Source: a bacterium (lineage in GTDB: Bacteria; Armatimonadota; Fimbriimonadia; Fimbriimonadales; Fimbriimonadaceae). From it: 64,000 nucleotides of DNA. Below the pieces are notes generated by a model that saw only the letters and a list, made by a program, of their open reading frames with translations, made no database searches and was not told the origin of the DNA. Of this stretch, positions 28,234 to 53,768 are shown piece after piece; within the stretch, counting starts at the first letter, position 1; each line of letters starts with the position of its first letter. Both the position numbers and the translations under genes were made by a program. The stretch lies in contig JAIXUN010000002.1 of assembly GCA_027483535.1 (NCBI GenBank), positions 620,001-684,000 of the forward strand, written 5' to 3'.

Positions 28234-28575
28234 ATGAAGAAAATCGAAGCCTTTGTCCGGGTTAACAAACTCGAGGAAGTGAAGAATGCCCTGGAAGAAG
28301 TGGGTCTGTTCGGCATGAGCTGCGAACAGGTTCGCGGATACGGTCGGCAGTTGGGTCGAACCGACAAGTATCGCGGCAGCACGTACGCGCTCAACCTGCT
28401 CCCCAAGATGCGCATCGAGGTGGTTGTGAAGGATGAAGAACTGGAAAGCGCCATCGAAGCGATCGTTTCGGCAACTCACACGGGCGAAATCGGCGATGGC
28501 AAAATCATTGTCACGGAAGTTCTTGACGCGATTCGAATCCGGACGGGCGAGCGCGGCGAATCGGCTCTCTCCTAA
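28234..28575 (+). CDS. glnB: PII nitrogen regulatory protein (GlnB/GlnK family)
   Basis: A trimeric signal protein of 113 residues that senses ATP/ADP and 2-oxoglutarate. The T-loop runs from RGYGRQLGR to TYALNLLPK, with Q39 and the conserved Y51. The ATP-binding TGEIGDGKIIV signature is intact. In the family such proteins control nitrogen transport or glutamine synthetase. Here neither amtB nor glnA is nearby. Instead it is followed, 18 nt on, by a DNA-alkylation repair gene and a transposase relative. GlnK cannot be told from GlnB by sequence alone. Confidence 0.93.
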   Translation: MKKIEAFVRVNKLEEVKNALEEVGLFGMSCEQVRGYGRQLGRTDKYRGSTYALNLLPKMRIEVVVKDEELESAIEAIVSATHTGEIGDGKIIVTEVLDAIRIRTGERGESALS

Positions 28576-28593: not shown

Positions 28594-29391
28594 ATGTCCA
28601 ACTCTCAGCCGACAAAGGGGTACGCATCGCTCAAAGCGATTCCTCGCGAATATCTCGATCGGCTAGAGCGCGGGGAAATCGAGACGCGAACCCTCTCTGA
28701 AGGGCTTGCGATCAACTACCAAACGCTTTTTTGCAACGTCCTTCCCGGGCACGAAGGCGCCGTCGATGAGGCTTTTCGAGACGCGGGGGCGATCGTGAGC
28801 AAAATGCAGGTTGGCGGCAAATTGCTGTACGAATTGTCTTTCGAGGGCAAGATCGACCTCTTCGATTTCGCGCATCACCGGTCAGATATCCTCCGATGCT
28901 GCGCGGCGTACGCCTATCAGGCGATGCCCCTAGAGAACATCCGCGACCGACTCTGGGCGAATCGACCCTTCGCCGCCGATCCTCACTTTGGCGTCCGGGA
29001 AGTGGCGTGGCTGTCAGTAAGGCCGCACCTGCTGGAAGACGATACGTTAAGGGCGGCGCTGATCGAACTTGAACTCTTCGTTCAAGACACCGACGAGGGC
29101 GTTCGCCGGTTTGCCACCGAACTCACTCGACCACGCGGAGTGTGGTGCGCCCACCTAAAGCTGCTCAAGCAGAGCCCCGAACTCGGTTTCCCGCTCTTAG
29201 ATCCCCTTAAGGCGGACCCCTCGCTCTACGTTCGAAACTCGGTGGCGAACTGGCTGAACGATGCTTCTAAAACCCACCCCGATTGGGTTCAAACCGTGAC
29301 CGATGAGTGGCTAAAAGTGAGCCCGACAAAGGAGACAAATGCGCTCGTCAATCGGGCAATGCGCACCTTGCGCAAGAAGGCGAAACAATAA
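28594..29391 (+). CDS. AlkC-like HEAT-repeat DNA alkylation repair protein
   Basis: A helical protein of 265 residues. The segment LYVRNSVANWLNDASKTHPDW (about 212-232), with the following DEWLK and ALVNRAMRTLRKK, is the landmark of the AlkC/AlkD superfamily of HEAT-repeat DNA glycosylases. These remove N3- or N7-alkylated purines in the cytosol. The C-terminus stops soon after RTLRKK, so it is slightly short. The middle (FGVREVAWLSVRPHLLED) is also HEAT-like. No catalytic residue can be assigned with certainty. The gene lies 18 nt after the PII gene, and its TAA overlaps the next ATG (TAATG). Glycosylase activity is inferred. Confidence 0.75.
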   Translation: MSNSQPTKGYASLKAIPREYLDRLERGEIETRTLSEGLAINYQTLFCNVLPGHEGAVDEAFRDAGAIVSKMQVGGKLLYELSFEGKIDLFDFAHHRSDILRCCAAYAYQAMPLENIRDRLWANRPFAADPHFGVREVAWLSVRPHLLEDDTLRAALIELELFVQDTDEGVRRFATELTRPRGVWCAHLKLLKQSPELGFPLLDPLKADPSLYVRNSVANWLNDASKTHPDWVQTVTDEWLKVSPTKETNALVNRAMRTLRKKAKQ

Positions 29392-29876
29392 TGTCTCGCT
29401 GGGATAACTTCCACATATGGCGCGGGCGATTGCCTCACTGGCGCGCCGACGACGTGACCTACTACGTCACTTTCAAGCACCGGCGACCGCTCACCGAAGC
29501 GGAACGGGTGATCCTCTTCAAAGACCTTCTCCGGGCGGACGGTCGAAAGTGGAACGTCGATATCCTGTGCGTGCTTCCCGAGCAAACCGACCTCCTTTTC
29601 CGTGTCGAAAGCGACCGTGAGGGGCGCCCTTACGAACTCAGCGACATCGTCGAGAAAGCGAAAACCAAAGCGGGGAAGCGGATCATGAAGCTCACCGAAG
29701 AGCGGTATTCGCCCTTCTACACCGAAAGTTTCGACCGCATCGTTCGAGACGAATCGGAAGAAGGGATGCTGTTTGAAGTCATCTTGGCGGGTCCGGTCGA
29801 CCATGAATTATGCGAAGACCCAGAGGAGTACCGCACCCTCTGGGTCGCCAACGCGCCGATCGGAATCGACGACTAA
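29391..29876 (+). CDS. REP-associated tyrosine transposase (RAYT) relative lacking catalytic residues
   Basis: A protein of 161 residues matching the Y1/RAYT transposase fold: RGRLPHW at 11-17, TYYVTF at 23-28, FYTESFDRIVRDE at 109-121, and PEEYRTLW near the C-terminus. In active members the HUH motif PNHVHLL supplies two metal-binding histidines. Here it reads PEQTDLL (63-69), so both are lost. The catalytic Tyr of the YIxxNPV segment is Val130 in VILAGPV. The start overlaps the stop of the AlkC-like gene. An open frame upstream of 29391 belongs to another reading of that gene. It is probably a domesticated DNA-binding protein. No flanking REP-like palindromes were found. Confidence 0.85.
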   Translation: MSRWDNFHIWRGRLPHWRADDVTYYVTFKHRRPLTEAERVILFKDLLRADGRKWNVDILCVLPEQTDLLFRVESDREGRPYELSDIVEKAKTKAGKRIMKLTEERYSPFYTESFDRIVRDESEEGMLFEVILAGPVDHELCEDPEEYRTLWVANAPIGIDD

Positions 29877-52580: not shown

Positions 52581-53768
52581 TCACCGTTTCAACAAAAAGA
52601 GACAAACCTCCAACGGGGCAAAGTCTAGCGTCGCGGTTCGGTCGTTGATCTTCACTGCGGACCCGTTCATCAAGTTGCTTCCGGTCTTAAATGTATCGGG
52701 GAGTTGCACCCTCACGCCGGAAGAGGGTTGTCGGGAAGGATTGACGAGCACTAAAAGCATCCCCTCATCGGTCTTCCGCCACCCACATTCAATCGGTGAA
52801 GAAACCTTCGGTGCAATTGGATTAGGGTTGATCTCACCTTGTAACACCGCTCCTAGTTGTTTGAGCAACGCATTTTGTTTCTTCATCTCCGCAACCAATT
52901 CCGGCGGGGCACCATCAAACCGAAACCCACTTTTGCCTACTACGGCGGGGAAGTAGAACAGCCCTCTCACTCCATGAACAATGGCGTACCAAATCTGGGC
53001 GCGAACTTCTGGCGCTGTCGGGCATCTTGCCCCCGCAACGTTTCCCTTTTCGATCTCACTCAGTTCGATAAAGCAGAACTGGGGTTTGTTTGTCAGGCGC
53101 CGAATGGCTTTGATCGGGTCGGCAAGGAGGGCGATATCCCCTCGTCTGCTGGCATGAGCCTGATTCAAATATCCGCCGGACGGATAGAGGTCGTTGGCAA
53201 CCCAATCTGTCACTGCCAAAAGTCGGGGATAGTAGCTCGCATACTCCTTTGAATATGAATCCGTGCGACTAAGAAACCACGAAACATCGGGTCCCGCTAG
53301 GTTGAGAAAAACCTTTCGAGTGGGATCCACCTGTCTCCATTCTTTAAAGGTCCGTTCAAACGCAGGTGTCCATTGCGGGGCTCGGCCCGCAGCATCCGGT
53401 TCGTCCCAATGCGACCAAGCCAGCAGGTCCTTGCGACCCTTATCAGCTTTCCCATCTCCAAGGGGTCGGCGGATAATTCGGAAACCGAATTGTTGAGCGG
53501 TACGGTCCCAAGCAACTGGATCATGATTCTGCGGAACCTCTAAGAGCGTATTGATTCCACGCTCTTTCCACTTTGGAAACGACTCTAGCGGTTGGGAGAA
53601 AACTCCAATCGGGAAAAAGCCGTTCAGGAATAAGTCGGAGTCCGCCTCCGATTGGCGGCCCGACAACCCAGACCGCGTAGTCACCCCTCCAGGGGCGCAA
53701 CCAAAAAAGCCCGCTCCAACTGTCGAACTCACCAAACAAAGGGCAACCAGTCCTGATTGATTGGGCAC
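52581..53768 (-). CDS. Glycosidase-like lipoprotein with TIM-barrel-type fold
   Basis: A protein of 395 residues. The GTG start gives a signal peptide ending in a lipobox (GFFGC, C24). The barrel-like core has FFPIGVFSQPLESFPKWKERGINTLLEVP, LAWSHWDEPDA (two acidic residues), and VRGLFYFPAVVGKSGFRF; the C-terminus is a beta-sandwich that begins near CGWRKTDEGMLLVLVNPSR. It resembles clan A hydrolase-like surface proteins, but the catalytic pair is uncertain and the substrate unknown. Confidence 0.72.
   Translation of the reverse strand: MPNQSGLVALCLVSSTVGAGFFGCAPGGVTTRSGLSGRQSEADSDLFLNGFFPIGVFSQPLESFPKWKERGINTLLEVPQNHDPVAWDRTAQQFGFRIIRRPLGDGKADKGRKDLLAWSHWDEPDAAGRAPQWTPAFERTFKEWRQVDPTRKVFLNLAGPDVSWFLSRTDSYSKEYASYYPRLLAVTDWVANDLYPSGGYLNQAHASRRGDIALLADPIKAIRRLTNKPQFCFIELSEIEKGNVAGARCPTAPEVRAQIWYAIVHGVRGLFYFPAVVGKSGFRFDGAPPELVAEMKKQNALLKQLGAVLQGEINPNPIAPKVSSPIECGWRKTDEGMLLVLVNPSRQPSSGVRVQLPDTFKTGSNLMNGSAVKINDRTATLDFAPLEVCLFLLKR

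Follow-up and report, generated by a model that had tools for sequence, protein, structure and literature searches.

REP-associated tyrosine transposases (RAYTs) are transposases of the Y1/HUH type. They have been described as domesticated and yet as enzymes that cut, with no clear benefit to the host. TnpA-REP has been proposed to be a domesticated RAYT (PMC6006769, PMC8266576). Sequences without the core motifs have been set aside as non-functional, and the metal-binding Asn of the 'NP' motif corresponds to N119 in the E. coli RAYT (PMC6006769). Here we describe a RAYT-derived protein, for brevity called the dead RAYT, that is encoded in a 64,000-nucleotide stretch of DNA (the window) from a 3.77-Mb, 99% complete genome of the Fimbriimonadaceae, and we compare it with these systems throughout the family.

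Layout of the locus and descent of the protein

The dead RAYT gene (29391..29876, + strand) encodes 161 amino acids and is the last of three genes on the same strand. It is preceded by a gene for a 265-amino-acid AlkC-like HEAT-repeat protein (28594..29391, + strand), and this in turn by the gene for a PII nitrogen-regulatory protein (28234..28575, + strand; Pfam P-II, 1.8e-24), which usually lies upstream of the dead RAYT. The last A of the AlkC-like TAA (29389-29391) is the first base of the RAYT-like ATG, so that a TAATG stop/start overlap can be read directly at 29389..29393 (+ strand), and 18 nt separate PII from the AlkC-like gene. The first-pass annotation had reported both this overlap and this spacing, and the coordinates agree exactly. 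Its AlkC-like label was also upheld, by a PDB match to AlkC (5VHV/5VI0) at 9e-33 and by AlkC being the top fold match as well. On the opposite strand lie a sensor histidine kinase gene in front of PII (28097 to 26808) and an FKBP-type gene behind the trio (30720 to 29887), both named from sequence reading.

The window protein matched the NCBIfam model NF047646 (REP_Tyr_transpos) at 1.6e-6 and 28 bits, which is below the curated cut-off of 80 bits, and the same model matched 45 of 54 orthologues, the best at 8e-12. Pfam Y1_Tnp gave no match to the protein, and a Colicin_Pyocin Pfam match at 0.004, under its cut-off, was dismissed. In a Foldseek search with the AlphaFold model (pLDDT 86), the top PDB match (2.5e-6) was 4ER8, in which the E. 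coli RAYT sits on a REP hairpin, and VIA-align superposed the two with a Z of 13.7 and an rmsd of 3.5 over 139 residues. The intact RAYT fold that had been proposed for this protein was thus confirmed, with 4ER8 as the best solved match. The closest sequences from outside the family were RAYTs of Deltaproteobacteria, Nitrospinales and others, in which MPDHVHLL and YIxxNP are intact. The window protein is a RAYT by descent, with homology beyond chance.

Loss of the active site and retention in the Fimbriimonadaceae

In the alignment with HUH-intact RAYTs, the former HUH motif, which is P-D/N-H-V-H-L-L in active relatives, reads PEQTDLL at residues 63-69 (29577..29597, + strand), and the site of the catalytic tyrosine is occupied by Val130 (codon at 29778..29780, + strand), a position that is Tyr in 22 of 22 scorable active relatives. 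Both substitutions had been read from the window sequence, and both agree with the alignment to active relatives. The loss of all catalytic residues that had been claimed extends to a fourth one, the metal-binding Asn of 'NP', which is present in 100% of the active relatives, is Gly134 here (codon at 29790..29792, + strand), and is mostly Ser in the orthologues. When about 76 orthologues were aligned with active cousins, position 65 (the first His) was variable, position 67 (the second His) was Glu or Asp in most orthologues, and no orthologue had both HUH histidines or a Tyr at position 130; lone histidines occurred in two of them (L081 at 65, L066 at 67). Two alignment rows with H, H and Y are separate active RAYTs that lie near the dead gene in genomes G005 and G056, and are not orthologues. 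The aligned sequences from outside the family had HUH and Tyr intact wherever this region was covered, and no homologue with intact HUH and Tyr was found in the same setting.

About twenty framework positions are common to dead and active RAYTs, including the LPHW motif (residues 14-17; 29430..29441, + strand), which is at least 80% identical in both groups, the lysine K91, and the ESxDRIxRDxxE segment, whose ESFDRIVRD part (residues 112-120; 29724..29750, + strand) contains the residues E112, I117 and R119 that are invariant in 54 orthologues. W10, R18, A19, H30, R32, T66, E82, E88, E104 and P108 are near-invariant in the dead RAYTs and not in the active ones, and these roughly ten newly near-invariant positions point to a new constraint on the protein. 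The most divergent dead RAYTs, L066 and L165 (Fimbriimonadia bins), occur in reduced genomes (1.5 Mb for L066); in L066 the gene is directly followed by DnaK, and its one remaining histidine is at position 67.

A profile search found the dead RAYT in 80 of 85 Fimbriimonadaceae genomes, including all 70 with a completeness of 90% or more and a contamination of 5% or less, and the five genomes without a match are all under 90% complete. With a single protein as query it was detected in 59 of 61 family genomes; a contig scan with a single protein gave no matches, and one based on the alignment gave matches. In the order's sister families it was missing, and other lineages of the phylum gave only weaker, RAYT-level matches, if any. 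The dead sequences formed one clade with a branch support of 100/100. For the seven close pairs in which dN/dS could be computed, six ratios were between 0.03 and 0.10 and that of the most distant pair was 0.15, several of these values being rough because dS is near saturation. Divergence of the dead RAYT (0.65) was similar to that of prolyl-tRNA synthetase (0.57) and correlated with it, with a Mantel r of 0.52 that was equalled or exceeded in 18 of 5000 permutations. Retention in 70 of 70 genomes, the single clade and the low dN/dS together indicate an ancient, clade-wide domestication; the view of the first-pass annotation that a transposase fold had been domesticated here is therefore backed by retention, single origin and strong purifying selection.

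Neighbours, active relatives and rival explanations

The catalytic residues are gone, as they would be in a decaying transposase remnant without function, but retention across the family as one orthologue per genome, dN/dS values of 0.03-0.10 and invariant motifs have already refuted that reading, and its chance of being right is negligible. The earlier proposal was instead that the fold had been domesticated to bind DNA structures or REPs in partnership with the AlkC-like glycosylase, which would fit the stop/start overlap in the window genome and the fact that adjacency with overlap recurs, in the same slot, in five genomes of two genera. Of these five genomes, with the order PII, AlkC-like gene, RAYT, four belong to one genus and have the downstream FKBP gene in common, and the fifth, G044, is from another; support in the AlkC tree is too weak to tell one filling of the slot from two. 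Across the family, however, the AlkC-like gene was found in only 12 of 85 genomes and adjoins the dead RAYT in only those 5, as against the presence of the dead RAYT in every good genome, and the AlkC-like copies that were read elsewhere had no RAYT beside them. As a neighbour the AlkC-like gene is accessory and confined to a few lineages. The dead RAYT is much more ancient and more widespread than the combination of the two, so that a partnership is unsupported as a general role; the pair was mostly absent when related genomes were searched, which refuted it as a general system. The REP-binding half of the proposal found no support either, as GTAG-tagged hairpins were at chance level in the 464 kb of the 3.77-Mb window genome that was sampled (6, against 4 in one shuffled copy), and the abundant palindrome of this genome, described below, goes with a DUF559 gene. 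We consider the AlkC partnership very improbable.

Somewhat less improbable, yet still unlikely, is that the dead RAYT is a dominant-negative silencer, which would occupy the hairpins of active RAYTs without cutting them and so protect the genome. Active RAYTs scoring above the NF047646 cut-off were found in 45 of 85 family genomes, and in G005 and G056 copies with HUH and Tyr intact (G005:C109:51262-51630, L077; G056:C2:406385-406744, L096) are no more than about 1.5 kb away from the dead gene; in G056 the copy belongs to an open frame of 853 aa. However, when genomes were judged by their highest NF047646 score, about 30 of the 70 good ones, 1.5-Mb genomes and the window genome among them, keep the dead RAYT without any active RAYT, so that silencing active relatives is not its general role, and the active copies of the family are distant in the tree. 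We regard as the most serious rival, although a doubtful one, the reading that the fold has become a PII-controlled regulator or a PII receptor, that is, a partner in PII signalling, which would account for the frequent pairing of the two genes. Among loci with enough flank for gene order to be counted, 36 of about 57, from 17 genera, had PII no more than 1.2 kb upstream and on the same strand, many of these pairs overlapping or lying within 12 nt, and several loci keep PII while other neighbours have changed; such a neighbour hints at a possible link of the dead RAYT to nitrogen control. On the other hand, about a third of the loci have no PII in this position, DnaK is also a recurrent neighbour (downstream in 16 loci of 12 genera), and some of the linkage may simply reflect a local gene order passed on by descent, as further genes of the block have been kept as well. 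A divergent histidine kinase was found near the dead RAYT in 26 loci. In L048, L050, L056 and L062, which have no AlkC-like gene, a one-base overlap (TGATG) joins PII to the start of the dead RAYT, a coupling of the kind seen between the AlkC-like gene and the RAYT in the window genome.

The palindrome of the window genome is an arrangement of its own, and is independent of the dead RAYT finding. The genome has 133 copies of a two-hairpin palindrome with the core CACCCCTCC-N3-GAGGGGAAT (control pattern, 0), often as inverted pairs, and copies closely flank both of its intact DUF559 (PF04480) genes; examples are at L243:3600-4400, L303:1099-1432 and L304:1402-2049. By their listed coordinates, DUF559 genes lie between palindrome copies in G004, G033 and G045 too. 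This looks like a REP/REPIN-type arrangement in which a DUF559 (Vsr-like) nuclease may take the place of the RAYT. As a general partner of the dead RAYT the palindrome was rejected, being present in only 9 of 85 genomes and flanking DUF559 genes. At position 53682 of the window there is a partial copy of the motif, CACCCCTCCA, which lacks the second hairpin arm and is possibly due to chance.

Proposed role and comparison with described systems

The reading that we favour, to which we assign a probability of roughly 60%, is that the dead RAYT is a non-cutting, RAYT-derived protein that arose by a single loss, became a core gene of the whole family, and binds single-stranded hairpins of DNA or RNA, probably in a regulatory role. 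In this reading one ancient RAYT was stripped, a single time, of its entire metal and tyrosine active site, either in the ancestor of the Fimbriimonadaceae or earlier. Vertical descent has since carried it on in one copy as a housekeeping gene, which in most cases follows PII. As judged from the residues present, the protein should not cut, since it is without any metal ligand or nucleophile, and DNA cleavage by the HUH mechanism would be impossible for it. With the remainder of the fold intact, binding would be the most economical function: the retained RAYT core, comprising the N-terminal LPHW segment, the central sheet, the hairpin-binding helix with its lysine and the ESYDRIxRDxxE segment, would recognise folded single-stranded DNA or RNA, and the protein may act as a regulator or a protector. 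The most conserved N-terminal segment, in which residues 1-9 and 15-17 were modelled with low confidence, could serve protein binding instead. Also weighing against this reading, PII is absent from its place beside the dead RAYT in about a third of the loci, GTAG hairpins show no excess in the sampled 464 kb of the window genome, and a search of 35 loci for a conserved hairpin in front of PII, where the alignment was poor, found none. A stronger version, in which the whole family depends on a dead HUH transposase that was exapted purely for binding, fixed in every species, and turned into a core regulator that binds nucleic acid and is linked to nitrogen signalling by PII, we put forward as a tentative possibility. 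With cutting lost once and the protein kept in every species, binding would have been separated from cleavage, in a natural case of separation of function which suggests that such a protein can be retained for its binding alone, or for a new partner.

Among the known proteins to which this locus can be compared, the AlkC glycosylase (5VHV/5VI0) and AlkD2 (6M9M/4X8Q) have the HEAT-repeat domain that is matched by the AlkC-like gene. The AlkC-like protein differs in being shorter and in being accessory in the Fimbriimonadaceae; in one alignment to 5VHV the E152 and W160 positions are kept and the Glu117 position is Trp. The TnpA of IS200/IS605 (a Y1 transposase; 2A6M, 2VJV, 2XMA) has a related HUH/Y1 fold with a VIA Z of about 10, but the match covers about two thirds of the dead RAYT, whereas that to 4ER8 spans the whole of it, and in contrast to this TnpA the dead RAYT lacks the catalytic residues and no element ends were seen.

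The closest systems are the RAYTs themselves. With RAYT/TnpA-REP (NF047646, E. coli TnpA-REP, PDB 4ER8) the dead RAYT has in common the fold over the full core and an occurrence as one copy per genome, and with its nearest active cousins the framework LPHW...TYYVTFR and ESYDRIxRDxxE. It differs from them in that its orthologues lack the HUH His pair, the catalytic Tyr and the metal-binding Asn, in its new invariant residues, and in that no REP-like partner repeats were found in the sampled part of the window genome. We found no description of a family-wide, catalytically dead RAYT in the literature searched, the coverage of which was incomplete; what is new here is that such a protein is kept across a whole family. 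Like the domesticated TnpA-REP, the dead RAYT is a single-copy, transposase-derived gene that behaves as a host gene, but the described domesticated RAYTs keep HUH and Tyr (PMC6006769, PMC8266576), and the dead RAYT does not.
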